DNA of 35,452 bases from positions 1 through 35,452 of the forward strand of contig JASLKC010000020.1 of the NCBI GenBank assembly GCA_030747785.1, read 5' to 3'. The translations under genes were made by a program, and so were the position numbers. Every line of letters begins with the position of its first letter. The first letter of the stretch is position 1. Under the pieces are notes generated by a model, which worked only from the letters and a program-made list of their open reading frames with translations, searched no databases and was not told where the DNA came from. Origin of the DNA: Candidatus Poseidoniaceae archaeon. Its GTDB lineage: Archaea > Thermoplasmatota > Poseidoniia > Poseidoniales > Poseidoniaceae. This document shows, piece by piece, positions 1 through 23,358 of this stretch.

Positions 1-1707
1 CTTGTGGCACTATTCCTTGCTCTATCTGCAGTTTCTGCAGTTAGCGGTGACGGATCCGACCCACTCGACCCTTCAGATGGAGGAGCAGATTGGGACGGCG
101 ATGGATTAACCAATGCAGAGGAACAGAACCACGGCACAAACATGAATAACGCCGACAGCGATGGTGACGGTTTACCTGATGGATGGGAGGTCAACAATGG
201 CCTTTCACCAACCAATGGCGGAGACGCCAACGGTGATCCTGATGGAGACGGTCTGACCAACGCCCAAGAGTACGCACAGGGTACAAACCCTAACAACGCC
301 GATACGGATGGCGACGGTAAGAGCGACAGTGTCGATCAATACCCAACCGATCCTTATGATGGTGAATACAGCGACTCTGATGGAGACGGTATCCCAGACG
401 CATACGACCCTGATTTCCAGGAGTCAAATGAAGGATCTGGCGATGGCGGAACCGAGGGCGGTGGCGAATCTGAAGACCAAGGTCAGGGCGAAGGTCAAGG
501 CCAAGGACAAGGACAAGGTCAGGGACAAGGACAAGGTCAAGGACAAGGTCAAGGACAAGGTCAGGGACAAGGTCAGGGACAAGGTCAAGGACAAGGTCAG
601 GGACAAGGTCAAGGACAAGGTCAGGGACAAGGTCAAGGACAGGGTCAAGGACAAGGTCAGGGACAAGGTCAAGGACAAGGTCAAGGACAAGGTCAGGGAC
701 AAGGTCAAGGACAAGGTCAAGGACAAGGTCAGCAAGGTCAGCAAGGTCAGCAAGGTCAAGGTGGCCAACAAGGTCAGCAAGGACAGCAAGGCCAAGGTTC
801 CCAGCAAGGACAGCAATCCGGTCAACAAGGCCAGCAAGGTCAATCAGGCCAGCAAGGCCAAGGCCAGCAAGGAGAGCAAGGTCAGCAGGGACAGCAGCAA
901 GACAACGGTCAGGGACAGCAACAGCAAGGCGGCGAACAAGGCGGCCAGCAGGGCGACCAGACCAGTCAAGACCAGGGAGGTCAAAACTCCCAGAACGGTC
1001 AGAACCAGCAGGAGCAAGGACAGACTCAGAACGGCCAGCAAGGCCAGCAGGGTCAGCAGTCCGAGCAACAGCAGGGTCAGCAGCTGGACAACCAGGAGCA
1101 GAACGGCGAGAACGACAATGATGGTGATGGAATCCCAGATAACCTCGACAACGATGACGACAATGACGGCATCGCTGACGATCTGGATGCTAACCCAGAA
1201 GATCACGACAACGACGGCATCAACGACGCAGAAGACAGCGACGATGATGGTGACGGAATCGATGATGCTGAGGAGACCCAGGATGGCGATCCAAACACCA
1301 ACATCTACGACCATGACAATGACGGAATCAGCGACAATGTGGACCTCGACATCGATAACGATGGCATCGACAACCGCAACGACGTTGGCCCGAATGGCGA
1401 GGACTACAGCCGAGACCACGACAACGATGGCTCGGATGACGGCGTGGATACCGATGATGACAATGACAACATCCTCGATGTGGACGAAATTGGTGGCGCT
1501 ACTGGCGCATACCGCTACGACCATGACAACGATGGAATCTGGGACAGCACCGATACCGACGACGACAACGATGGCCTTTCCGATTGGTTCGAGACTAACG
1601 ATGGCAACGACCTCACAGGTCAGTTTGACCACGACAATGACGGAATGGATGACATGGACGACGACGATGACGACAATGACGGCATCATCGATATCCTTGA
1701 AGTCTGA
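1..1707 (+). CDS. Asp-rich surface protein with Gly-Gln repeat, 5'-partial
   Basis: Exported, probably calcium-binding surface protein; the exact role is unknown. The frame is open to the first base, and a hydrophobic stretch ending in Ala-rich sequence (LFLALSAVSAVSG) just inside the window looks like the end of a signal peptide or membrane helix. The GTG at base 4 is therefore unlikely to be the true start. Order of parts: two to three thrombospondin-type-3/EF-hand-like loops (DWDGDGLTN, DSDGDGLPD, DPDGDGLTN); a Gly-Gln low-complexity tract of about 200 residues starting near residue 160; then about ten loops of the type DHDNDGI and DDDNDGI up to the last residues. No C-terminal membrane anchor or sorting motif is visible, so it may be held by its N-terminus or released. 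It precedes a giant protein with the same loop type and is separated from it by a strong terminator hairpin. Family function (Ca2+-dependent stiff rods) is established; the role here is inferred. Confidence 0.85.
   Translation, partial: LVALFLALSAVSAVSGDGSDPLDPSDGGADWDGDGLTNAEEQNHGTNMNNADSDGDGLPDGWEVNNGLSPTNGGDANGDPDGDGLTNAQEYAQGTNPNNADTDGDGKSDSVDQYPTDPYDGEYSDSDGDGIPDAYDPDFQESNEGSGDGGTEGGGESEDQGQGEGQGQGQGQGQGQGQGQGQGQGQGQGQGQGQGQGQGQGQGQGQGQGQGQGQGQGQGQGQGQGQGQGQGQGQGQGQGQGQGQQGQQGQQGQGGQQGQQGQQGQGSQQGQQSGQQGQQGQSGQQGQGQQGEQGQQGQQQDNGQGQQQQGGEQGGQQGDQTSQDQGGQNSQNGQNQQEQGQTQNGQQGQQGQQSEQQQGQQLDNQEQNGENDNDGDGIPDNLDNDDDNDGIADDLDANPEDHDNDGINDAEDSDDDGDGIDDAEETQDGDPNTNIYDHDNDGISDNVDLDIDNDGIDNRNDVGPNGEDYSRDHDNDGSDDGVDTDDDNDNILDVDEIGGATGAYRYDHDNDGIWDSTDTDDDNDGLSDWFETNDGNDLTGQFDHDNDGMDDMDDDDDDNDGIIDILEV
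481..1092 (+). repeat. Gly-Gln coding tandem repeat
   Basis: Tandem repeat inside the first gene. The first part, to about 732, is roughly forty Gly-Gln dipeptides. Codons mostly alternate GGA-CAA with GGT-CA(A/G), so the DNA unit is about 12 bases rather than 6. After that it changes to Gln-Gly-Gln and more degenerate Gln/Gly/Ser/Asn-rich sequence. The unit keeps the reading frame, so gain or loss of copies would change length without disrupting the protein. Confidence 0.9.
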
Positions 1708-1941: not shown

Positions 1942-4900
1942 ATGTTGTCAAACAGACTATTCAATCAAAAAATTGAGAACCGCCTAAAAACGACAGTATC
2001 AGTAGGAATCATATTCCTGATGATTACGAGTACGTGGCTTGCTATGATTGCTGAAACCAGTGGTAGTAACACTGTTGAAAGCGTTTTATCAGAAGGTACA
2101 CCACTTGCAATGAGCGACTCTCAATCCACTGACCAAGGTGGCCAGGGAGGATGGGATGGTGGCAGATCTAGCCAGGTTGGCTTAGAAATGCACGATGCCC
2201 TATGGGACCTTGCATGGTCAGACCCTGGTGCAATGTATGGCCATATTGATGACCTTTCAGTTCTCGACCTCAACGCAGGTTACGGAATAATGCTTGAGGA
2301 ATCCCACTTGGAAGACCACGACAATGATGGCATAAATGACTTAGCAGATCTCGATGATGACAACGACGGTATTTACGACCTTTTAGAGAGATTCGATGGT
2401 TGCGTGGAAACAGATCCGTACGACCACGATAATGATGGAATCCTAGACCATCTCGATTACGATGATGACAACGATGGTATTCTGGAAGGGCCAATCGACT
2501 TCACAGCACTTGAAGCCCTAGGCCTAGATCCACGAAATGTTAGCATGCACCGCTATGTTGAATCAACGACGATTCATCCACTATCAGGGCTTGAGGTTGG
2601 CCAATTCTACCGTGCCGACCAACTCCCATTCGATCACGATAACGATGGCGTCCCAGACGAGGACTCGGATGGTTCAGGCGCTGGACGTTATGATGAAGAC
2701 GACGATAACGATGGCCGTATTGACCAATTCAAGTGGCCTTGTGACTTCGATGATGATGGCGCTCAGGATTACTTCGACGACGATGATGATAACGACGGCA
2801 CTCTTGACTGGAATGACGCTGCACCATATGATGCCAGTATTTCTGGACCAATGTCTAGCAGCGGAAACATGTACGACACCTACCGTACTTGGAATTTCAA
2901 TGAATACAGGGCTTACTCAGCAGGTGTTGACTTCATTACACTTGAAGCTAACAAAGTAGATGCAAATGACGTCTTCGACTATGCAGGAGGAGAGCAAGGT
3001 GATGGTGCGGCTGGAACTCCCGCTTTCACAAACATTGTCGACGGAGATCTTGACGGCGATGGCATTCCCAATTTCATCGACCCAGACAATGATGACGATA
3101 ATACTCCAGATAGTGCAGATACCGATGATGACAATGATGGGCTATTGGACATGTCCGACCCTGATGATGACAATGACGGAATACCAGATACTTGCTGGAA
3201 TATCGATTTGAATAATGATGGTCTAAATGATTACACTGGTTTGAATCAAACACCGTATCAAACGCCAGGAGCAGATACAGATAATATCCCTGGAATCGAT
3301 TGCGAAATGGATTATGATGCCGATATTGATGATGATAGATTCCGACCATTTGACCAAAATTACAACGCGGTTTGGGATTGGCTAGATCCAGACATGGGCG
3401 GTTCCGCAACTCCTGATGACCCCGTACATACTCAGCAATTCGCTCTTGATTTCGCTTACGATATCGATAACGACCAGATTGAGAATGAGAACGACTCTTT
3501 CCCTGCTGACATGAATAGCGAGGCGTGGATGGCAACCTGCCCATCAATGGCAAACCCCAATCCTACTAGCCCCGATTCCCGATGTATGACACGACGCGCT
3601 TCCTTTGGGCAATTCAATGACTGGGATGGCGATGGCATTTCTAATTGGGACGATGTTGATGACGACGGTGATGGAATTATCGACATGCTCGATATTGATT
3701 GGGATTGCGATTTTGATAATGACGCAGACCTTCACAATATCAACGGAAGCCGTTACCGTGACGATGGTCCAAACGATGTCGATGCAGATATCGACGGCGA
3801 TGGAATGACCAACGATATCGATTGGGATGACGACAATGATGGATTGTCTGACTTGTATGACCCAGATGATGGAAATTGCGGACTAGTAGATTATGATGCT
3901 ACAGACCAATTCGCAACCCCCTACTATCCTATTGGCGACGGCGCTCCACTTGACGGAAGCAACGACGACCAAGCATATTCCGATAATACTGACGATTACT
4001 GGGCATTAATTTTCAATGCTAATCCATTCGCCGATGTAATCCTCAATTACAATGGATACGACCCTACTATCAGCCCTATTACAGATTCAGGAGGGACAGT
4101 ACCTGAATTCTATTGGTTCATGTACACCCGCTGGTCCTCCTACAATGGCGGTAACGAATGGGATATTGACGCTGATGGTGATTCGCTCATCAACGGCTTA
4201 GATACAGACCAAGATGGCGACGGCATGCCTGATTGGTGGGACCAAGACGAGGGTAACGATGGCCTCCTTGATGTGAATGATCTCAAGATGGGTGGTTCAA
4301 TCAATATGACCCAGTGTGGTTGGTCTGTCGGATCACTTGGTACTGGATTCACATGCGGATATCAATATGCTCTGTCATATCATATGCCATTAAACGGAAT
4401 CAATGCGCAATTTGGCTCTCCATATTCAACTCGACCAGATTCAGTTGTAGACCAAGGTAACTTCGCCCAAGGCAACTTCACTTGTACTGCAGGAGCCCAA
4501 GGTGGATGTTGGCACTATGACTTCGGAGGGGACCAATCTACCGATTCGGCAATGACATTCGCAGAAATTACAGATAACCGCGATGCATATCTTACTTGGG
4601 TAGGCCTTTCCACAGGCATTTGGCAGTGGAACTTTGACGCCCCTGGCCCGATGAATGGCTTCCCTGATGAATTGGGAGCAGATTTTGTCAAGAATTGGGA
4701 AGATGGCGATGTCGATGGTGACTTCACTAACAATACAATTGATTTGGATGAAGATTACGATTCACTGTATGATTGGAATGACATCGATGACGACAACGAT
4801 GGCGTATGGGACTTCTTCGAAGTAGACCAAAACGACGATCTTGACGATGATGATGGCCAAGACAATGGCAATTTCTTCGGTGGAACAAATTGTAATGACA

Positions 4901-7900
4901 ATGATGATGATGGAAACGATCAGGACGTTGACGGAGACGGTTGGTTCCAATCTGTTTGGGACCGGGGCGAGATGAGCCAAGGTCTCCGTAGCCCGAAGTT
5001 TTACGATGTTGACAACGATAATGATGGTGTACCAGATTCAGAGGATTTCGACGATGATAACAACGGGGTTTCCGATGAACAACAAGAAATGATGCCCGGA
5101 TGTTTTGCTGGCGAAGAACAACATCCATTTGATCACGATAATGACGGTATAGTAGATTGGGCCGATGATGACTTTGACGGCGATGGCTTATCCAATACAG
5201 CAGAATTAGCAGTTTCTCTAACCGCCGTATTTGATCACGACAACGATGGCACCCGTGACGATATGGATCTCGATGACGACGAAGACGGAATGCAAGATAT
5301 TGACGAAGTTCTACTCTGGCCAACACGTTTCGACAGCCCATCTACAAATCCATGGGACCATGATGATTACGGAAACGGCGAAGGTCTTGCTAATCCAATG
5401 GATTCTAGCACAGGCCCAGATTCAATCGACGATGATGATGACAACGATACGCGCGTAGATGCGGATTTTGACCATTTAGAAGAGACTTGGACTGCAGACC
5501 CTTGTTATGCTGGTTCACAATCAAGCGATTGGGACCACGACAACGATTGCAAATTAGATGCCGACGATAAGGCACCTACATTCATTACGATGCAAATTCC
5601 AGAAACGCTATGGATGGATGCTCGAAGCCCATCCATTTTCAGCGGGCACGTAGATTGGATCAATCCAGTCAGTCAAACACTTGAGCCTGCAGTTGGATTG
5701 CCCGTTCAAGTTCAAATTGAGTGGACTGGGAACAATACTACAGCTATCGAGACAATCGACGTTCTCACTAATCAGTGGGGTAATTTCACTGTTGGACAGT
5801 TTATCTATCCAGAGGATTTGACAGTAGGGGACAATACAACTTACCGCGTATACGCAGAAGTTACCGAGATGTTCGCCTTCAATGGAAATACAAGCCAGTC
5901 ATACTTTGTTGGCTGTGAGGCTAACCTTACAGTTGACTATTCGGCATGGACCTACTTCCGTAGCGATGAACAACCGTTCTGGCTCGATTTCAAGGCTCAT
6001 TATGAAGCAGACTGGATTCGTGGATACTACGACTTCCCCGTGAAGAATGCTCCAATAACATTCTCAATTACCGGAGGAATGTTTGGAAACCGAACAGCTC
6101 CATCCAACTTCTCTGGATTCGACGGTAATGGATACAGAACCGATGAAGGCGGTTGGGCTTCACTCACATTCGTACAGAGCCTTGGAGCAAATGGAACATG
6201 GAAACAGGTTCGATGGAATTCTACAATGGATAATGGAGTAGGCTCCATTCCAGGCGGCTATGAAGAGATTGTATGGAATGATCTAATCAAGGAACACGAT
6301 GTGGTAGTAGATTCTTTAGGAGTGCCAGTCAGGTATGATTATACCAATACAAGTCTACCAGCAGGAGATATTGAAATCATTGCATCTGTAGACCCAACTC
6401 TCGCAGGCGAGTGGCCGTTCCCGTACCTCCACGGTGATGAAACAGATCCATTCTCCGTTCGTGTTATGCACAGAATGAATATCGAGGGAGAGATGATTGT
6501 TGGCGGATTATCGCCGGTGTATTATTGGGATGCAACCATCAATAATGGCGATGGTAGTTTCGGTAATTGGGCAACCCTCTTCCATCAGCAAGCACTCAAT
6601 GCCGCCGGTGTAACTTTCACTGAGGCAAAGATACTGAGGCCATATCCAACACTTTGGGATGGCAATCCAGCAAACTTAACTGGCGAAGCAGTCAACTTAC
6701 GCGACTTCATCAATGTCAACACAACTCACTGGTTCATCAACTTGGTAAATGGTGGCGATTCAGACTTACCACCTTGTGGCCAAGTTGACCCAACCGACCC
6801 TAACAGCCCAATTCGCTGTGAGATTGTACCTGAGATGAATACTGGAGATACCCTATTCGTCACTGGTAAGGTAACAAACCGAACCAATGATGCGTGGGAC
6901 CAAGATCCGATTGCACTACAGGTTGACATTGACCACAACGGGCAGTTCTTAGGAAGCCAAGAGACGGCATATACTCAACGCCCGGTTATGCATAATGGTG
7001 ATGCGACATTTGAGTACAACTGGACTTGGTTCAGTCAGTACGCAGCAGGAACCTACGGTCTCCGAGTCGACTTCACTAACAATGCATACTACTTCACTGG
7101 AAATTCTTCCACATTAGCATCTACTGGTGCATACATCAATGTTACAGTCATTGGAACAACTCAGTTCCAGATGACTAGTGTGCCCCGTCTGTATCGCAAT
7201 TCGACCACTAACATCGAGGCCCGATTAATGGACAACTCATTGCAACCTGTAAGGCAGGTTCCGGTGACGTGGACATGGAGTTTCGACGGTAGAACTGGCG
7301 TTAATTACACAGATGATATCGGAACCTTCTCAATTCCGTTCGACATCAATCCAGATGACTCACTTGGAAACTATTCCTTGCAATTTGAGTACGATGGTAC
7401 ACGGTTGATGAAGGGCAATGTCGCAAGCCAGAGCGTTTGGGTTGTCTCCCGTACATACATCAACGTAGTTCAAGCAGATCCTAATATTCGTCAATCAGGT
7501 GACCGTTGGGATTTCACAGCTCAAGTTAATGATGACAATAAGACAGCCACAATTCGAGATGCCGGTGGGCAGGCACTTTCCGGTGCTAACTCTCCAAATG
7601 GCGGTCTAGTCGATGTCATCTACGAAGGAACGGATTTCGATGGAGTAGTGCATCGGCAAGTTGTTGCTACACTCGCTCCAAATGCAGGAATTATTTCTCT
7701 ACCAGAACCATTGTCCGCTGGTAGCCACCTCTGTTTCTATGATGGAAATGGCGATGGCATACCTGACCGTGATAACGATGGAGATGGACAATTATCTGAT
7801 TCTGAATCGATAGGCTGTTTGAAGGCGAATATTTCACCTCTCAACCCACAATTGCTCAGAGAAGACCCTGACAGTTTCCTTCCGGATGGATTTGGACCGG

Positions 7901-9837
7901 TTAGCGTCTATCTGCGATTCCGTGAGACATTACCTAACGAAGGATGCCAGGAAATTGAGGTTTCGTTCCTTTCCTTACAAGGTAAGTGGGACCCATGTGT
8001 TGACCTACTCGGAAACGACCACTTCCGTGTTCAGATGTCATATAACTCAAATGGATTCTCTCTAATTGGAAGAACATCGCTCGATATCGATGACCAAATC
8101 GTCTACACAAGTGAGATTGACCCACTATCTGGATTAGTAGTTTCTAAGCCGATGGTCGTCACAGGTGTGCTTTCTGATGAATTGGAGACCAACCTAACCT
8201 TCCGTTCAATCCGTGTCAATTATGAGATGGTAAACAGTCCAGCAGGACCAGTTGCATGTGAGAACGGAATGACAGATATCGATGGCCGCTTTGCCATTAC
8301 ATGTCCACTTTCAGACGTAATGGCGGGAACAGCACGCGTATCAGTAATTTATTCCGCTTGGGATAATAACGACGCATTCCGCTATCAGAACAAGACCGTT
8401 CAAACCGAGTTCGATGTATTCAGCAACTCGACCCTACAGATTTCAGAGGTTGGCCCATTCAAGTCTAGCGTCGAAACATTCGTCGCTGCAAATGGGACAT
8501 CATACCCAGTATTGTATCTAAAGGAAAGCTTCCACATCGATGCAATATTGACTCAATCAAACGGGCAGTATGTCGGCGGTAAGTGTCTGAACATCTACCT
8601 CGACCCGCAAAAGAACGTCCGTCCGCTTGCAAGTATCAACACTCGCGAGTCCGATGGAATGGTTGAATGGTTTAGTGGCGATCCAAGCCAGAATCCGAGT
8701 TTGAAAGGTGTAGAAACTACCGGAGGACAACTCGAAGGCTATCGCCTATTACGAGTGGCATTCGAACCGGAAGTCAACGTACCCGGTGGATGTGACAAAG
8801 ACTCATCTAACGTGTTGAATGGTTCAAGCATGGATATCGTCGTACTCGTGCGTAGCAGAGTCGATCTCCAGGTTAAGACTACTTGGTCTCATACCGGGGC
8901 AAATGGTCTGGACACCGACGGCATGGTTCATGGTGAAATCGCACTATTACGAGACCGCCTTGACCTCGCAGTTGAGAATGAAGAAATATGGTTTGTACGC
9001 CAGTACTGGGATTCCAACAGCCTCGAGTGGGTTACTGAGGGACGAAATGAGTCTTATACAAACGAGCAAGGTGTAGCATCGTTCCATTGGGCATATTCTG
9101 GCAAGACCTGTGAAGGAGAGCCTTGTGGTGGAGATTGGCGTATCATCGCTTACTACCCAGGTTCTACATTCTATGCGGAGTCAACCGATAATATCACACA
9201 CGAAGTACATTACAAAGAGAAGGTAATTATTGAATCTACATCGTGGTGTATAGGTCCAGTTTGTATCGATAATCCATCATGGTTAATGGCGCTTGCAATC
9301 ATTTTCCTTGCCGGAGCAATTGCTGGTGTAATGTATTACCAGCGCGTCGTTGCTCGTCGTCAGGTAGAGGCACTTCGTGGTATTCTTACGGATACTATGC
9401 TGCAACTCCAAGCTGCAAACGAATATATCGCAATCATCTTTGATTGCTACAAGCAATTGGTGAAGCACTTCAGGCGACATGGATTCATGAAGAAGGTCTA
9501 CGAAACCACTCGTGAATTCGAAAGCGCAGTACGCAATGCATTCCACATGGTGCCAGCAGACCAACTCGATGGATTCCTTGGAATCTTCGAAGAGGCTCGC
9601 TACTCAGACCACGACATTGGACCAAGTCACCGTGACCGTGCAATACAGACATTGAATGCTATTGCTCAGAGCCTATCGATGGCTCTTGGCGATGGCGGAA
9701 TGATCACCCGCGGTGCGCAACACGATGCGGAATTGTATGGCAATCTCACCAAGGCTGGCGAATTCGTTGCAGCAGATGGAACAGTCAAGCAGGCTGGACT
9801 TTCAGACGACGAAGAACTGTCCAATTTCAAGATTTGA
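1942..9837 (+). CDS. Giant Ca-loop surface protein with intracellular DUF4129-like tail
   Basis: Membrane-spanning surface protein of 2631 residues. Residues about 17-38 form a hydrophobic signal or anchor helix. About residues 115-1205 are packed with thrombospondin-type-3-like acidic loops (DHDNDGI, DDDNDGI, DWDGDGI), a type known to bind calcium. About 1210-2440 is Thr/Asn/Gly-rich with many N-glycosylation sequons and looks like successive Ig-like beta domains; another short acidic loop group occurs near residue 1940 (DGNGDGIPDRDNDGDG). A second membrane helix (LMALAIIFLAGAIAGVMYY) begins near 2450. The last 160 residues lie on the cytoplasmic side, begin as a probable coiled coil and contain CYKQLVKHFRRHGF, ETTREFESAV and FEEARYSDHDIG. 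These match my memory of the DUF4129 family (PF13559), often found as cytoplasmic tails of transglutaminase-like and other surface proteins. Paired Cys residues suggest disulfides outside. The ATG at 1942 has a good ribosome site. Function unknown; an adhesin, S-layer-type protein or surface sensor is possible. Confidence 0.9.
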   Translation: MLSNRLFNQKIENRLKTTVSVGIIFLMITSTWLAMIAETSGSNTVESVLSEGTPLAMSDSQSTDQGGQGGWDGGRSSQVGLEMHDALWDLAWSDPGAMYGHIDDLSVLDLNAGYGIMLEESHLEDHDNDGINDLADLDDDNDGIYDLLERFDGCVETDPYDHDNDGILDHLDYDDDNDGILEGPIDFTALEALGLDPRNVSMHRYVESTTIHPLSGLEVGQFYRADQLPFDHDNDGVPDEDSDGSGAGRYDEDDDNDGRIDQFKWPCDFDDDGAQDYFDDDDDNDGTLDWNDAAPYDASISGPMSSSGNMYDTYRTWNFNEYRAYSAGVDFITLEANKVDANDVFDYAGGEQGDGAAGTPAFTNIVDGDLDGDGIPNFIDPDNDDDNTPDSADTDDDNDGLLDMSDPDDDNDGIPDTCWNIDLNNDGLNDYTGLNQTPYQTPGADTDNIPGIDCEMDYDADIDDDRFRPFDQNYNAVWDWLDPDMGGSATPDDPVHTQQFALDFAYDIDNDQIENENDSFPADMNSEAWMATCPSMANPNPTSPDSRCMTRRASFGQFNDWDGDGISNWDDVDDDGDGIIDMLDIDWDCDFDNDADLHNINGSRYRDDGPNDVDADIDGDGMTNDIDWDDDNDGLSDLYDPDDGNCGLVDYDATDQFATPYYPIGDGAPLDGSNDDQAYSDNTDDYWALIFNANPFADVILNYNGYDPTISPITDSGGTVPEFYWFMYTRWSSYNGGNEWDIDADGDSLINGLDTDQDGDGMPDWWDQDEGNDGLLDVNDLKMGGSINMTQCGWSVGSLGTGFTCGYQYALSYHMPLNGINAQFGSPYSTRPDSVVDQGNFAQGNFTCTAGAQGGCWHYDFGGDQSTDSAMTFAEITDNRDAYLTWVGLSTGIWQWNFDAPGPMNGFPDELGADFVKNWEDGDVDGDFTNNTIDLDEDYDSLYDWNDIDDDNDGVWDFFEVDQNDDLDDDDGQDNGNFFGGTNCNDNDDDGNDQDVDGDGWFQSVWDRGEMSQGLRSPKFYDVDNDNDGVPDSEDFDDDNNGVSDEQQEMMPGCFAGEEQHPFDHDNDGIVDWADDDFDGDGLSNTAELAVSLTAVFDHDNDGTRDDMDLDDDEDGMQDIDEVLLWPTRFDSPSTNPWDHDDYGNGEGLANPMDSSTGPDSIDDDDDNDTRVDADFDHLEETWTADPCYAGSQSSDWDHDNDCKLDADDKAPTFITMQIPETLWMDARSPSIFSGHVDWINPVSQTLEPAVGLPVQVQIEWTGNNTTAIETIDVLTNQWGNFTVGQFIYPEDLTVGDNTTYRVYAEVTEMFAFNGNTSQSYFVGCEANLTVDYSAWTYFRSDEQPFWLDFKAHYEADWIRGYYDFPVKNAPITFSITGGMFGNRTAPSNFSGFDGNGYRTDEGGWASLTFVQSLGANGTWKQVRWNSTMDNGVGSIPGGYEEIVWNDLIKEHDVVVDSLGVPVRYDYTNTSLPAGDIEIIASVDPTLAGEWPFPYLHGDETDPFSVRVMHRMNIEGEMIVGGLSPVYYWDATINNGDGSFGNWATLFHQQALNAAGVTFTEAKILRPYPTLWDGNPANLTGEAVNLRDFINVNTTHWFINLVNGGDSDLPPCGQVDPTDPNSPIRCEIVPEMNTGDTLFVTGKVTNRTNDAWDQDPIALQVDIDHNGQFLGSQETAYTQRPVMHNGDATFEYNWTWFSQYAAGTYGLRVDFTNNAYYFTGNSSTLASTGAYINVTVIGTTQFQMTSVPRLYRNSTTNIEARLMDNSLQPVRQVPVTWTWSFDGRTGVNYTDDIGTFSIPFDINPDDSLGNYSLQFEYDGTRLMKGNVASQSVWVVSRTYINVVQADPNIRQSGDRWDFTAQVNDDNKTATIRDAGGQALSGANSPNGGLVDVIYEGTDFDGVVHRQVVATLAPNAGIISLPEPLSAGSHLCFYDGNGDGIPDRDNDGDGQLSDSESIGCLKANISPLNPQLLREDPDSFLPDGFGPVSVYLRFRETLPNEGCQEIEVSFLSLQGKWDPCVDLLGNDHFRVQMSYNSNGFSLIGRTSLDIDDQIVYTSEIDPLSGLVVSKPMVVTGVLSDELETNLTFRSIRVNYEMVNSPAGPVACENGMTDIDGRFAITCPLSDVMAGTARVSVIYSAWDNNDAFRYQNKTVQTEFDVFSNSTLQISEVGPFKSSVETFVAANGTSYPVLYLKESFHIDAILTQSNGQYVGGKCLNIYLDPQKNVRPLASINTRESDGMVEWFSGDPSQNPSLKGVETTGGQLEGYRLLRVAFEPEVNVPGGCDKDSSNVLNGSSMDIVVLVRSRVDLQVKTTWSHTGANGLDTDGMVHGEIALLRDRLDLAVENEEIWFVRQYWDSNSLEWVTEGRNESYTNEQGVASFHWAYSGKTCEGEPCGGDWRIIAYYPGSTFYAESTDNITHEVHYKEKVIIESTSWCIGPVCIDNPSWLMALAIIFLAGAIAGVMYYQRVVARRQVEALRGILTDTMLQLQAANEYIAIIFDCYKQLVKHFRRHGFMKKVYETTREFESAVRNAFHMVPADQLDGFLGIFEEARYSDHDIGPSHRDRAIQTLNAIAQSLSMALGDGGMITRGAQHDAELYGNLTKAGEFVAADGTVKQAGLSDDEELSNFKI

Positions 9838-9878: not shown

Positions 9879-9933
9879 TCCTATGCCCGTAGCAAGCGCA
9901 GGGTTGATGTGGCGTGCCTTATGTGGTACAACT

Positions 9934-10377
9934 ATGAGCGATTGGAAGGCGTTAATCGACCAAGCTATGATGCAAGAGGGTTCTGATGTAATTGGAGCCC
10001 ACCACACCTACGGAAAAGCAGTGAAGTCAGCACTCGCAAGTGCCCAATCATTGTTGTCAGATCTTGAGGCTGCACAGATTATGGAATTAATCTATGGCGC
10101 CTTGGTGGCATACTCCCAACAAGTGATGTTGAGAATGAAGGCTGAAGACCCAGAGATAGGAGGGGTCGACCATGCATTCCGTGCCGGGCAAGCATACGGC
10201 GTAAGTTGTGTACTCAATCACCTGATTGATCAATTAACAGATGCAGCAGCGGTTACTTCACTAAAGGCTCTGGATGATTTCTCAGATACTCTACATGACG
10301 AGATTATTGTTCAGGCTCGCGGTGCAGGCTTGACTGTAGAACTCCTCGATGCAAAGGGCGAGATTCTATTCGAGTAA
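9934..10377 (+). CDS. Small alpha-helical protein, unknown
   Basis: I do not recognise this 147-residue protein. The start is set at the ATG beginning MSDWKALIDQ, because the upstream in-frame ATG at 9883 lies just after the hairpin and adds a low-quality segment (MPVASAGLMWRALCG). The protein is soluble and predicted to be almost entirely helical, with Ala/Leu/Asp-rich stretches (KAVKSALASAQSLLSDLEAAQIMELIYGAL is one long helical run split over residues 20-50) and a short beta-like C-terminus (GLTVELLDAKGEILFE). No catalytic motif or cysteine cluster is visible. It ends with tandem stops TAA-TAG. It sits between the giant surface gene and the ribosomal protein operon, where other archaea often have an RNA polymerase subunit D gene, but it does not resemble RpoD. 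Confidence 0.75.
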   Translation: MSDWKALIDQAMMQEGSDVIGAHHTYGKAVKSALASAQSLLSDLEAAQIMELIYGALVAYSQQVMLRMKAEDPEIGGVDHAFRAGQAYGVSCVLNHLIDQLTDAAAVTSLKALDDFSDTLHDEIIVQARGAGLTVELLDAKGEILFE

Positions 10378-17782: not shown

Positions 17783-19804
17783 ATGGCCGGGGCGGACCGC
17801 ATAAGTGAACTCGCCGAAGCCGTGCGATACCATCGCGAACTTTACTACAATCAGGCTGCCCCGGAGGTAACTGATGCAGAATTTGATATGCTATGGGAGG
17901 AGTTAATCCTCCTTGATCCTAGCAATGCCGTACTCCATGAAGTAGGCCCTGAACCGGCCCCTGGGACTGTGAAGGTAGACCACACATTCCCAATGCGTTC
18001 TCTCGATAAAGGAATCAATGCTGAAGACATAATTCACTTCGTAACCCAATCGACCTTTAGCGGTACTAGATACATCGCCCAACCTAAATTAGACGGCTCT
18101 GCACTTTCATTGGAATACGTGTCTGGAAATTTGGTTAGAGCCGCAACAAGAGGTAGTGGAGAGCGGGGTGAAGATGTCACTCTTAACGCACGTTTAGTAG
18201 GAAATGTCCCATTACGCCTGAACATAGCTGCTGATTGTCATGTTCGCGGTGAAGTTGTCATGCCATTGGCTATATTTGAAGAAAAATATCGCGAAATATC
18301 ACCAAATCCTCGCAATCTCGCCGCAGGTGCCCTTCGGCAAAAACACGGCGATGGTAAGGCCGATGCAAGAGATTTGATATTCCAAGCATACGATGTAAAA
18401 TTCCCACAGGTATCTCCCGATACCAATCTCGATAGCGATTTACTATCTTGGCTTAGTAAAGCAGGCATTGAACCAGCTCCTTGGACAATCTTTGATGAGG
18501 ACCAACCGCAAAATGCAATGGTTGAGCATACCGTTTCTTGGACAGGAAAACGCGCTGAATATGAATATGAAATCGATGGGATTGTATTCAAGTTAGACGA
18601 CCTTGCTCAGCGTGAACGACTTGGAATGACTGCGCATCACCCGCGTTGGGCTCTGGCGTGGAAGTTCCCTTCTCAGGAAGCAGAGAGTGTGTTACTCGGA
18701 GTTGACTGGCAAACTGGGCGCACTGGTGCAATAACCCCAGTAGCACGAATTGCTCCACAAATGGTTGGAGGCGTGACAGTGGAAAATGTCACACTTCACA
18801 ATGTAGGTGAAGTTGAGCGATTAGCAATTACATTGGGCGATAAAGTTAGAATTACTCGTAGAGGAGATGTTATTCCGAAAATTATCGAAAATCTAGGCCA
18901 AGCAACGATTACTGATTTGGAGAATCGTTTTCATGCCAATGGCGAACCTTTTGTCGGAAAATTACCTTCAGGAGTAATTCCGATTCCATCGAATTGCCCG
19001 GCCTGCGATAGGGCTCTCGTAATGGATGGAGCATTTTTGCGCTGTATTTCTTTGGATTGTGATGCAAGAACCGCCCGTTCTCTGACCTATTGGTGCCGTT
19101 CTCTGGAAATGGACGGCGTTGGGGAGAAGTTGATCGACGCATTACTTGAAGCAGGACTAGTCGAATCTATTGCTGACCTATACCGGCTTCAACATGCTCA
19201 ACTTGCCGACCTTGAAAGAATGGGTGATAAGAGTGCGTACAATGTTTTGGACGAACTTGCAAAGACTCGAAACCTAACACTATCTCGATTCCTTCATGCT
19301 CTTGGCATGGAACGTATTGGTCCAGAAGTTGCGACGACTATTTCTCAGCATTTTGTTAGTTTGGGGCGCATTTTGGAATGGGCTGACGGCGAGGATTTGG
19401 AAGAGTTAACCGCAGTTGATGGCATTGGCGAGAAAGTAGCCCAGACATTTAGGAATGGAATACAGAAACGTCGTGACCTTATTCAAGAATTATCAACAAT
19501 AATCGAAATTACCGATGAAGCACCAGCTGCAACCGGCATATTCGAGGGGCGCTCTTTTTGCATCACCGGATCACTTACAAAACCCCGAAAGGAAATTGCC
19601 TTAGCAATCAAGAATGCAGGAGGCAGAGTGGTTAGCAGCGTTAGCAATAGCCTTGATGTCTTAGTCGTTGGAGATAATGCTGGAAGTAAATTATCCAAGG
19701 CACAAAGCCTTGGGCTAGTAGTTTGGAGTGAAGAGGAATTATTCTTGGAAATTAGCAATGATTCAGTCAAAGATATCGCTTCCAAGACCCTATTCGATTT
19801 CTGA
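17783..19804 (+). CDS. ligA: NAD-dependent DNA ligase LigA
   Basis: Seals nicks in duplex DNA during replication and repair, using NAD+ to adenylate the enzyme. The 673-residue length equals bacterial LigA and all domains are present in order. Domain Ia has the NMN-binding Tyr-Tyr and Asp residues (YHRELYYNQAAPEVTDAEFDML, residues 16-37). The nucleotidyltransferase domain has catalytic Lys102 in KLDG and later NPRNLAAGALRQ and DGIVFKLDD. The OB-fold has RTGAITPVARI. The zinc finger has CPAC and a second Cys pair (C-x-five-C) about 15 residues on. Helix-hairpin-helix motifs follow, and a C-terminal BRCT domain begins at FEGRSFCITGSL. No inactivating change was seen. Start ATG has GGTGGT five bases upstream. 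Archaea normally rely on ATP-dependent ligase, so this is probably a gene gained from bacteria; Haloferax is a known archaeal precedent. Confidence 0.97.
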   Translation: MAGADRISELAEAVRYHRELYYNQAAPEVTDAEFDMLWEELILLDPSNAVLHEVGPEPAPGTVKVDHTFPMRSLDKGINAEDIIHFVTQSTFSGTRYIAQPKLDGSALSLEYVSGNLVRAATRGSGERGEDVTLNARLVGNVPLRLNIAADCHVRGEVVMPLAIFEEKYREISPNPRNLAAGALRQKHGDGKADARDLIFQAYDVKFPQVSPDTNLDSDLLSWLSKAGIEPAPWTIFDEDQPQNAMVEHTVSWTGKRAEYEYEIDGIVFKLDDLAQRERLGMTAHHPRWALAWKFPSQEAESVLLGVDWQTGRTGAITPVARIAPQMVGGVTVENVTLHNVGEVERLAITLGDKVRITRRGDVIPKIIENLGQATITDLENRFHANGEPFVGKLPSGVIPIPSNCPACDRALVMDGAFLRCISLDCDARTARSLTYWCRSLEMDGVGEKLIDALLEAGLVESIADLYRLQHAQLADLERMGDKSAYNVLDELAKTRNLTLSRFLHALGMERIGPEVATTISQHFVSLGRILEWADGEDLEELTAVDGIGEKVAQTFRNGIQKRRDLIQELSTIIEITDEAPAATGIFEGRSFCITGSLTKPRKEIALAIKNAGGRVVSSVSNSLDVLVVGDNAGSKLSKAQSLGLVVWSEEELFLEISNDSVKDIASKTLFDF

Positions 19805-19848: not shown

Positions 19849-22239
19849 ATGCGTCGCATTACAGCCGCAATGCTTGTACTCATTTTCGCCATGTCTTTAG
19901 CTTCACCATTGAGTGAAGGAAAAGAGAATGGGATATTCAACTCGGCCAATGGTTGTACATGTCATTATGCCGGCACAACCACCACCTCATTGACAGGAAC
20001 TCCAACAGATTATTCTCCGGGCCAGACCTATTCTCTGACGCTAACTGTTGCAGGCGGAGGTAGTGGCAAAGGAGGATTTTCAATGAATGTCAATAAAGGC
20101 TCATTTTCAAATCCAGGCACCTCTGTGAAGATAAATAATAGCGATAATAAACAGGCAACCCATTCTAATCCTAACGTAAGAACATGGACATTTGATTGGA
20201 ATGCTCCATCATCAGGTTCTGGTACAGTAACTTTCGATTGGGGAGTTATTGAAGCAAATGGAAATGGTGGGAATACTGGAGATAACAGAAATACCGGCAC
20301 AAAGAATGTTCCCGAATCTGTAACGAATAGTCCTCCTTCGGTTTCCAATGTGCAGATATCTCCGTCTTCAGCAATGACTGGGGATACATTGTCACTTTCA
20401 TATAATTACAATGACGGTGATGGCGATTCTGAGAGTGGCACCCAAATTAGGTGGTACAAAAATAGCAACCTCGTCTCCACTCGCAACAACATGAATACCG
20501 TCCCTTCATCTTTGACTATGAAAGGTGAATCGTGGGTTGTAGAAGTTACACCAAGTGACGGAACCGACCAAGGAAGCCCTGTGCAATCAAATGCCATGAT
20601 TATTCTCAACTCTGCACCTGTAGCCTCTGGTTCAATCACTCCATCTACTCCTATGGAAGACGATGATCTAACTCTCGTATGGTCTGGTTCAGATACAGAT
20701 ACAGACCCAACAACTCTTGTTGGGATTGAATGGTTTGTAGACGGCAGCGTCGTCGAAACTTTTGATGATACAACTACTGTTCCTTCTATTGCCATTCGTT
20801 CTGGCGATGTTTGGCACGCGAAAGTTATGGTGAATGATGGTACAACGAATAGCCTATGGTTCACAGTTCCAAGTGTAACAGTCGGCTCATCAAATACAGC
20901 ACCAGTCATGTCGAGTGTAACACTTGCAGGACCATATACAACTGTAGATGATTTGGTTGCATCCGCTCAAGCAAATGATGGTGATGGCGATTCTCTAACA
21001 TATGAATGGCAGTGGGTGGGCTCTTCTATCACAACAAATATTCTTCCTTCGACCTTGACAACTAAGGGCGAAAGTTGGACAGCAAAATGCAGAGTAACCG
21101 ATGGTTCAGCATACTCTGCATGGATGGAATCTAGTCCGGTAATAATTCAAAACTCAGCGCCCGTGGTTGAGAACCTATCTATCGATCAAGACACGGTTTG
21201 GTTCCAAGAGAATGCAACATGGTCTCATGTTGCAAGCGACGCTGATGGCGACCAAATTACTATTCTAGAACAATGGAGTCAAAATGGAGATGAATTGACA
21301 TTGACCATTCAAGCAAGAGATACTGAGATGGCACTATCATCAACAGTTAGTGACACAGTACTCATTGTTAATGCGCCCCCCTCTGTTTCTTTTGATGGGG
21401 AACTTAGTCAGGATTCTTTGAGCGACCTCGCTCCTGTATTCACTACAGACGACCTAAATTCAGATGCAGTTACACTTTCATATGAATGGATGAGAAATGG
21501 ATATCTAACTTCATTCAATTCCTCAGCAGTTCCCGCCATTAGCCTCGCACCTGAAGATACTTGGATTGTAGCGGTTACCCCAAATGATGGCATGGATGAT
21601 GGAGATACTTTGTTGGTTGAATTCACCATTACTAACATCGCTCCAAGTGCGGCAATTACAGCCGATAATAACGCTTTAATCGGCGTCCCAACAACTCTTT
21701 CTGCAATCTCTTCAGTTGATGTCGACGGAGTAATTTATGAAGTAATTTGGACAATAGATTCGATGACATATAGTGGATTAACAATCCAATATGCACCAAC
21801 TACAGCTTCGACAAATGTCAGCGTAACCGTCTATGATTACAGTGGCGCATCATCTTCTATGTCTATGACATTGCTCGCTACGCCTGCACCAACTGCAAAT
21901 AATGTCAATGTGAAGGTTGTTGATAACGAGGTATCCCTCTCTTGGAGTGGAGATGCAGACGAATGGGCAATTTACCGGGATGGCACCCAAATCGGTACTA
22001 CTACGGATAACAAATGGGCGGACCGACCTCCAATTGAAGGAGATTATACCTATGGCGTTGGTGCTGTAGTAGAGGGTACCGCAATTCCGATTCATGAAGA
22101 GACGTCTGCAAGCCTTGCAGTTGATGATTCAATCGAAGAACCAGGCCCAGCAACAACCGCTGGAATGATAATTGGTATTGTCATGATATTGATTGGCGGT
22201 GCTGGTGTTGCCCTTTCTTTCATTCCAAGGAGGGATTAA
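19849..22239 (+). CDS. Secreted CxCH / Reeler-like protein with Ig repeats
   Basis: Exported protein of 796 residues. Residues 1-23 are a signal peptide (RRITAAMLVLIFAMSLASPLSEG). The mature N-terminus has a CxCH motif (GCTCHYAG, about residues 34-41) and then a domain with YSPGQTYSLTLTVAGG and GGFSMNVNKGSF, which resembles Reeler and 'choice-of-anchor V' domains. In those, a CxxCH-like motif at this place is common and suggests haem or metal attachment. From about residue 155 come six or so Ig-like domains, each with PVVENLSI-, GESWTAKC- or DGMDDGDT-like strands. A membrane helix (AGMIIGIVMILIGGAGVALSFI) and RRD end the protein. GAGGAG just upstream of ATG supports the start. First of three genes with no gaps; a metal- or electron-handling surface role is inferred, not shown. 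Confidence 0.85.
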   Translation: MRRITAAMLVLIFAMSLASPLSEGKENGIFNSANGCTCHYAGTTTTSLTGTPTDYSPGQTYSLTLTVAGGGSGKGGFSMNVNKGSFSNPGTSVKINNSDNKQATHSNPNVRTWTFDWNAPSSGSGTVTFDWGVIEANGNGGNTGDNRNTGTKNVPESVTNSPPSVSNVQISPSSAMTGDTLSLSYNYNDGDGDSESGTQIRWYKNSNLVSTRNNMNTVPSSLTMKGESWVVEVTPSDGTDQGSPVQSNAMIILNSAPVASGSITPSTPMEDDDLTLVWSGSDTDTDPTTLVGIEWFVDGSVVETFDDTTTVPSIAIRSGDVWHAKVMVNDGTTNSLWFTVPSVTVGSSNTAPVMSSVTLAGPYTTVDDLVASAQANDGDGDSLTYEWQWVGSSITTNILPSTLTTKGESWTAKCRVTDGSAYSAWMESSPVIIQNSAPVVENLSIDQDTVWFQENATWSHVASDADGDQITILEQWSQNGDELTLTIQARDTEMALSSTVSDTVLIVNAPPSVSFDGELSQDSLSDLAPVFTTDDLNSDAVTLSYEWMRNGYLTSFNSSAVPAISLAPEDTWIVAVTPNDGMDDGDTLLVEFTITNIAPSAAITADNNALIGVPTTLSAISSVDVDGVIYEVIWTIDSMTYSGLTIQYAPTTASTNVSVTVYDYSGASSSMSMTLLATPAPTANNVNVKVVDNEVSLSWSGDADEWAIYRDGTQIGTTTDNKWADRPPIEGDYTYGVGAVVEGTAIPIHEETSASLAVDDSIEEPGPATTAGMIIGIVMILIGGAGVALSFIPRRD

Positions 22240-23358
22240 ATGCGTAAAACACTCATAATCGCAATGGTGCTATTACTGCTATCATCGGGGATTTCTACTG
22301 CAAATCCAGGTGGAGAGGGTGATGCCCTCAGGTCGATGGAGTGCGGTGGCTCGTGTCATGGCGATGCCGGTTCGAGCGATATTTCACCATCCACGATTTC
22401 AATAATCGTTGATGATGAGGTTTGGGCTGGATTATTCACGACAGTTTCAGTTGTTGTTGAAGGAGTTGAACCTTCTTCAAAGCGACTCGTGGGAGTCTTC
22501 CTTCTGACAAATGAGAATGGTGCAAAAGATACCCCTGCTCATGAAGGTTGGACAATAGTATCCGATGCGAATGGAGGCACGAATAATTATGTTGAACTCG
22601 AATATCCAAGAGATGCAGACTCACTCACATTTACTTGGATTCTAAGAGCCCCGGATGCCCCGATTGAACACAATTTGTTAGCGACAGTCCATCACGGTAG
22701 TGAGGACGGAGGTAATGCTTTCCAAGGGCAATCTGAGACTATTGTAATCGATGTGTGGACCCCACCGGAGAACCTTGCCAGATTAGCAGCAGATTGGGAG
22801 CCCCCGGCAGTGAGGGATATTGGTGAACAAACAACGATTTCACTCGAAACCGAGGACGTCACATCTTTCACAGCCGAGTATCGCATAGATGGCGGAGAGC
22901 CCGTTAGCCTGTTGGTTTCCGATGGTTCATTCACCCTTCCAGCAGCAGTCAACCCCGGCGTTGTCGAATGGAGGGCACATCTCGAAGGCGATGGCCCAGA
23001 CCAAACTACAGTTTGGTTCAGAATTGTAGCTGCTGAACCTGCTTGGGAAGTAGATGAAACGGCATTATATTTGCAGGCCTTTGCCCTGCTATTCCTCTTT
23101 GCAGGCTTAGTGGTAATGCAACGTCCATCCAATGGAGTCGATATGAAGTCATACGACCACACGAATCAAGTTCCAGCAATGGATACCGTTGCTAATTCTA
23201 TGTACGGAGGAGCTGCAGAGATTTTCACACAACCCCTACAAACTCATTCTGGACCTCCACTTCCTCCTAGCGGTTTGCCAGCAGGATGGACTATGGAACA
23301 ATGGCAACATTACGGCCAAGAACATTTAGATTCAATTCTAAGGGAGGGAGTACAATGA
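22240..23358 (+). CDS. Secreted CxxxCH protein with membrane helix
   Basis: Exported 372-residue protein. Residues 1-21 are a signal peptide (RKTLIIAMVLLLLSSGISTA). The mature N-terminus has MECGGSCHGDAG, a CxxxCH motif placed exactly like the CxCH of the preceding gene. Residues about 45-165 form a beta domain in which GVFLLTNENG matches the position of the Reeler-like core; a second Ig-like domain follows to about 265. A membrane helix (LYLQAFALLFLFAGLVVMQ) leads to an 80-residue cytoplasmic tail ending in LPAGWTMEQWQHYGQEHL, a Trp-rich helical motif that may be a docking site. GGAGG lies six bases before ATG. The 3' end overlaps the next start (ATGA). Likely partner of the preceding protein; haem binding is only suggested because the spacing is not the classic CxxCH. 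Confidence 0.83.
   Translation: MRKTLIIAMVLLLLSSGISTANPGGEGDALRSMECGGSCHGDAGSSDISPSTISIIVDDEVWAGLFTTVSVVVEGVEPSSKRLVGVFLLTNENGAKDTPAHEGWTIVSDANGGTNNYVELEYPRDADSLTFTWILRAPDAPIEHNLLATVHHGSEDGGNAFQGQSETIVIDVWTPPENLARLAADWEPPAVRDIGEQTTISLETEDVTSFTAEYRIDGGEPVSLLVSDGSFTLPAAVNPGVVEWRAHLEGDGPDQTTVWFRIVAAEPAWEVDETALYLQAFALLFLFAGLVVMQRPSNGVDMKSYDHTNQVPAMDTVANSMYGGAAEIFTQPLQTHSGPPLPPSGLPAGWTMEQWQHYGQEHLDSILREGVQ

Follow-up and report, generated by a model that had tools for sequence, protein, structure and literature searches.

What does a Marine Group II cell do with a surface protein of 2631 residues that carries a small conserved domain on the inner side of the membrane? The question is raised by one open reading frame, called P1 here, in a window of 35,452 nucleotides, which is the whole stretch of DNA that was analysed. 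Its source is a 1.83-Mb draft genome of Poseidoniaceae (Marine Group II). The initial annotation had described P1 as a huge extracellular part with calcium-type loops, joined by a single membrane helix to an intracellular DUF4129-like tail. It had also suggested that this unusual layout passes a mechanical or calcium state from the outside of the cell to the inside. The features that bear on this question were as follows.

1..1707, forward strand: secreted TSP3-repeat protein (PF18884, 49.4 bits), with its start cut by the contig end
1942..9837, forward strand: giant surface protein P1, an intact open frame with an ATG start, 2631 aa
1942..2073, forward strand: N-terminal hydrophobic stretch or signal peptide of P1, residues ~1-44, read from the sequence; the hydrophobic segment is found in orthologues too
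2299..5541, forward strand: Asp-rich region of calcium-type (TSP3-like) loops in P1, residues ~120-1200, from the loop motif count
5542..9270, forward strand: Ig-like beta region of P1, residues ~1201-2443, from weak MG2/Big_1 matches, BLAST and sequons
9277..9333, forward strand: single transmembrane (TM) helix of P1, residues ~2446-2464, from hydropathy; a helix in the model too
9445..9654, forward strand: DUF4129 domain of P1 (PF13559), residues 2502-2571 (ETTREFE ... FEEARYSDHDI)
9739..9834, forward strand: C-terminal extension of P1, residues ~2600-2631, with the conserved pattern KAG-F----G----AG in a 42-sequence alignment

Among 16 P1 orthologues, conservation extended over the full length (column means 0.56-0.83), the first 75 residues excepted. 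The C-terminal extension was present in the P1 orthologues and absent from the paralogue P2 in the same 42-sequence alignment. In NCBIfam, P1 matched none of the families. The gene order was also conserved, and the TSP3-repeat gene, P1, a small gene and ribosomal protein genes followed one another in the same way in two other Poseidoniaceae genomes. The upstream frame (1-1707) has no C-terminal anchor, and a long Gly-Gln tract separates its two loop blocks; the tract is also the source of a Lys-rich shadow ORF (308-1867). The small gene (9883-10377, forward strand) encodes a soluble protein that directly follows P1 in Poseidoniaceae and matched no Pfam or NCBIfam family. It was considered as a conserved partner of P1 and rejected, since the second family did not show it at this position. 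Farther along the window, there is an NAD+-dependent DNA ligase with adenylation, OB, HHH and BRCT domains (17783-19804, forward strand), a typically bacterial enzyme found here in an archaeal genome. It is followed by two adjacent surface proteins (19849-23358, forward strand) in which a Cys-x(1-3)-Cys-His motif was noticed by eye near the N-terminus.

The tail of P1 was examined with profile and BLAST searches. Residues 2502-2571 matched PF13559 (DUF4129) with E = 9.1e-8 and 32.5 bits in the protein scan, above the curated cut-off of 24.8, and the same domain scored 39.6 bits in the genome scan. In BLAST, the tail matched that of P2 (E = 4e-18) and relatives in other families too, so the assignment to DUF4129 made in the initial annotation was confirmed. 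Across 13 diverse DUF4129 tails, the residues Y, T, EF and E-A-Y were invariant, and both P1 and P2 retained the motifs ETTREFE or ETVREFE, and FEEARYS. AlphaFold modelled the P1 tail as mostly helical at low confidence (mean pLDDT 61). Foldseek with this model returned no structural relative, and a search of PDB sequences with the profile of DUF4129 gave only chance-like matches (best E = 0.12).

The ectodomain consists of two different halves. There were 57 loops of the form D-x-[DN]-x-D-[GDN] in P1, against 3.5 (at most 10) in composition shuffles, which is a 16-fold excess. As 53 of the 57 fall between residues ~120 and ~1200, the calcium-loop part proposed at first is real and fills this stretch, and the rest of the ectodomain is Ig-like. 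In the Ig-like region, the Pfam matches to MG2 and Big_1 were weak and under the cut-off, and BLAST aligned the region with the Ig regions of related DUF4129 proteins. The TSP3_bac profile (PF18884) matched the upstream frame and P2 and was silent on P1 at E <= 1. Thus, the name "thrombospondin-type-3" given to P1 is owed entirely to its loop pattern.

The topology was read from hydropathy, in place of a trained predictor. One hydrophobic helix at residues ~2446-2464 (hydropathy 2.22) divides the ectodomain from the tail and is directly followed by basic residues (QRVVARR). The ectodomain has 37 N-glycosylation sequons where 21.7 would be expected (sd 4.1), an enrichment that the tail does not share (1 observed, 0.4 expected). 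The distributions of charge and sequons fit an ectodomain outside and a tail inside, as first proposed, so far as sequence can tell. P1 has no N-terminal multi-TM DUF3488 region; there is only a signal-peptide-like stretch and the one TM helix. A single helix between a large ectodomain and a conserved domain in the cytoplasm would also suit a transmembrane sensor, in which stretching of the loops or calcium binding outside alters the helical tail and signals through MoxR and DUF58. We consider such a sensor unlikely. Pfam found no kinase, HAMP, output or other known signalling domain in the P1 tail, and this speaks against the inward transmission that the initial annotation had in mind.

A survey of DUF4129 architectures across the phylum, which had been proposed together with that idea, showed that long DUF4129 proteins recur. 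The genomes compared were mostly drafts with gaps. DUF4129 was present in 98 of the 194 genomes sampled, including 57 of 58 Poseidoniaceae genomes, where there are usually two frames, of ~2650 (P1) and ~2980-2990 (P2) residues. The second Poseidoniales family has two giant DUF4129 proteins per genome likewise. Thus, the layout is not unique to this locus; nearly all Poseidoniales have it, and it appears repeatedly in the rest of the phylum. In families outside Poseidoniales, the DUF4129 proteins had lengths between 273 and over 2600 aa (some long open frames in the GC-rich relatives L039 and L054 are not DUF4129 genes and were left out). The ectodomains joined to DUF4129 varied greatly in type and length, and the 273-aa protein is a multi-TM protein with no large ectodomain. 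With such variety, the state of the ectodomain is unlikely to be a common input, which is a second point against a sensor.

The paralogue in Poseidoniaceae adds a further domain.

L033:5250-14144: paralogue P2, with a transglutaminase-like domain and a DUF4129 tail

In its own gene order, P2 comes after a TM protein (L033:2262-5138, 958 aa, directly upstream of P2) that has a very acidic C-terminus (ELDDDLELLEDLEDL) and is conserved in three genomes. The Transglut_core match in P2 was strong (E = 1.2e-12), and the domain was also found in several related DUF4129 proteins. In Pseudomonas, transglutaminase activity has been measured for the membrane protein TgpA, which is critical for viability (PMC3507681). 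From these observations one could suppose that the P2 domain crosslinks or otherwise modifies surface proteins of the envelope, with P1 as substrate or scaffold. However, the catalytic His of the HAW motif was replaced by T, S, A or N in 12 of 12 P2 orthologues of Poseidoniales, with the Cys retained. In two other lineages, the profile alignments showed the reverse, a retained His and a lost Cys. In P1, Pfam found no transglutaminase domain, and a profile built from the paralogue detected no remnant with filters off. A degenerate transglutaminase in the Cys-rich stretch 790-870 of P1 was likewise looked for with the P2 profile, filters off, and not found. The P2 domain is probably a pseudoenzyme, as judged from its residues, and envelope crosslinking seems to us the least probable of the explanations. 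Between families, the tail motifs persist, while the ectodomains and the catalytic residues vary. Therefore, we argue that the function shared by these proteins is the coupling through the tail and not transglutaminase chemistry.

The gene context indicates what the tail may be coupled to. Outside Poseidoniales, the DUF4129 gene leads an operon; after it come a DUF4350-like gene, MoxR, DUF58 and a multi-TM gene. The distance between DUF4129 and DUF58 was 1.8-4.4 kb at no fewer than 23 loci (>=23) in 11 families outside Poseidoniales, whereas the chance expectation for such proximity is about 1% per locus. DUF4350 frequently lay no more than about 1 kb from DUF4129. A genome of the class-level sister group has both of its DUF4129 genes in such modules. 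Furthermore, DUF58 was present in 97 of the 98 DUF4129-positive genomes and in 22 of the 96 DUF4129-negative genomes (p = 3e-32, ignoring relatedness); counted by family, the association was 24/1/3/at least 7 (p = 1e-4). Haloferax volcanii, a cultivable archaeon, likewise had matches to DUF4129, MoxR and DUF58. In one sampled genome (G143), the DUF4129 match was weak and DUF58 was not detected. The linkage of DUF4129 to the module would offer a sensor, too, a cytoplasmic ATPase module to signal through. Nevertheless, the gene context of DUF4129 and MoxR fits ATP-driven maturation from the inside better than signalling from outside to inside.

In Poseidoniales, the giants and the modules are unlinked. 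The P1 gene is not adjacent to DUF4350, MoxR or DUF58, either in its own genome, where the modules are on other contigs, or elsewhere in the order. For instance, in the complete genome G011 the giants map to 0.27 and 0.94 Mb, and the DUF58 genes are found at 0.65 and 1.85 Mb. Poseidoniales genomes have two DUF58 copies and usually two DUF4350 copies, order-wide. In the genome of P1, one module consists of DUF4350, MoxR, DUF58 and a multi-TM gene, and the other of DUF4350, DUF58 and a multi-TM gene with no MoxR. Two more MoxR genes of this genome (contigs C7 and C31; L069 and L070) each lie just after a GTPase gene with a GHVDHGKTS motif, which looks IF2-like by eye, and a ParA-like gene is near each. 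The surroundings of MoxR on C7 and C31 are possibly a duplicated segment. A joint duplication of the giants and the DUF58 modules was considered as well, and the trees do not show it: the two Poseidoniales copies were weakly paired in the DUF58 tree (90/92), and the DUF4350 and tail trees had no resolution (AU p = 0.35 for a clade of P1 and P2).

With giants and modules apart, P1 might be a structural or adhesive envelope protein whose DUF4129 tail is an inherited anchor, no longer served by MoxR and DUF58 in Poseidoniales. The lack of a transglutaminase in P1 and of the catalytic His in P2 would agree with this. So would a previous study that reported thrombospondin genes as widespread in Poseidoniales and proposed a role in cell adhesion (ISME J 2018, PMC6461757); its passages on these genes make no mention of a DUF4129 tail, a link to MoxR or a two-copy rule. 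However, P1 and P2 have both kept ETTREFE or ETVREFE and FEEARYS, and practically all genomes retain two copies of the modules, something a dead anchor could do without. We therefore regard the inherited anchor as rather doubtful, though less so than the sensor. Because the DUF4129 gene lies beside the MoxR module in related archaea, the cell probably relies on the module for the assembly or control of these giant surface proteins.

Three known systems can be compared with this one. We take PA2875 and PA2874 of Pseudomonas to be MoxR and DUF58 proteins, and the C-terminus of TgpA to be DUF4129. TgpA (PA2873) lies in the predicted operon PA2875-PA2874-PA2873-PA2872 (PMC3507681). Like TgpA, P2 and its relatives carry an exported transglutaminase-like domain on a membrane protein. 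Unlike TgpA, P1 has neither the DUF3488 multi-TM region nor a transglutaminase, and its ectodomain consists of about 2400 aa of calcium loops and Ig-like repeats. For the second system, it should be noted that DUF58 and vWA proteins are kin. For an archaeal complex of arCOG01314 (DUF4350), MoxR/GvpN, vWA and Ig proteins, a role in secretion or membrane remodelling has been predicted (Biochimie 2015, PMC5898192). In both cases, a DUF4350 protein, a MoxR ATPase, Ig-like surface proteins and multi-TM proteins are encoded together, with DUF58 here in place of the vWA protein. The surface protein here differs in being a single chain of ~2600-3000 residues that carries a cytoplasmic DUF4129 tail of its own; its gene is also unlinked from the module in Poseidoniales. 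The main text of PMC5898192 mentions neither DUF58 nor transglutaminase, and a literature search on DUF4129 does not retrieve that paper. Third, the PFNA cluster of Bifidobacterium comprises PKB2, FN3, a MoxR-type AAA protein, DUF58 and a transglutaminase (PMC8430577). There, too, a large surface glycoprotein (FN3) is encoded with MoxR, DUF58 and a transglutaminase; unlike here, the transglutaminase and the surface protein are separate genes and a protein kinase is present. No DUF4129-tailed giant with calcium loops is reported for that cluster (PMC8430577).

Taken together, P1 is probably the giant surface protein, anchored in the membrane, of an archaeal DUF4129-DUF4350-MoxR-DUF58 envelope system, and the best reading is that it is related to the bacterial transglutaminase-DUF4129 proteins. 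Its origin seems to be a protein of the transglutaminase-DUF4129 type that acquired a huge ectodomain made of calcium-loop and Ig-like repeats. Poseidoniales have two copies, both unlinked from the module, and P1 is the copy that has no transglutaminase domain. A chaperone function that involves binding to vWA partners has been described for MoxR proteins (PMC11834572). Given this role and the predicted DUF4350-MoxR-vWA-Ig complex, we propose DUF4129 as a cytoplasmic handle on the client. The helical tail of P1 may thus be where DUF58, a membrane protein, and the MoxR ATPase dock; DUF4350 and the multi-TM protein would be their partners in the membrane. Their grip may drive the assembly, maturation or surface placement of P1, where both the direction and the role of ATP are suppositions. 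The ectodomain would form a calcium-stiffened rod for the envelope or for adhesion.

A bolder version of this can be offered only tentatively. The two calcium-loop and Ig-like giants might be the core of the Poseidoniales surface, with their DUF4129 tails gripped inside by a MoxR-DUF58 ATPase complex. Assembly or actuation would then be driven by ATP from inside to outside, with the transglutaminase chemistry lost and the coupling through the tail kept.

Little is known of what builds the cell surface of Marine Group II archaea, which are abundant and uncultured. Present in almost all genomes and equipped with a conserved inner tail, the two giants are strong candidates for a core component of the envelope. 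Furthermore, the operon series gives DUF4129, a domain of no known function, a candidate role as a membrane client or adaptor of MoxR and DUF58.
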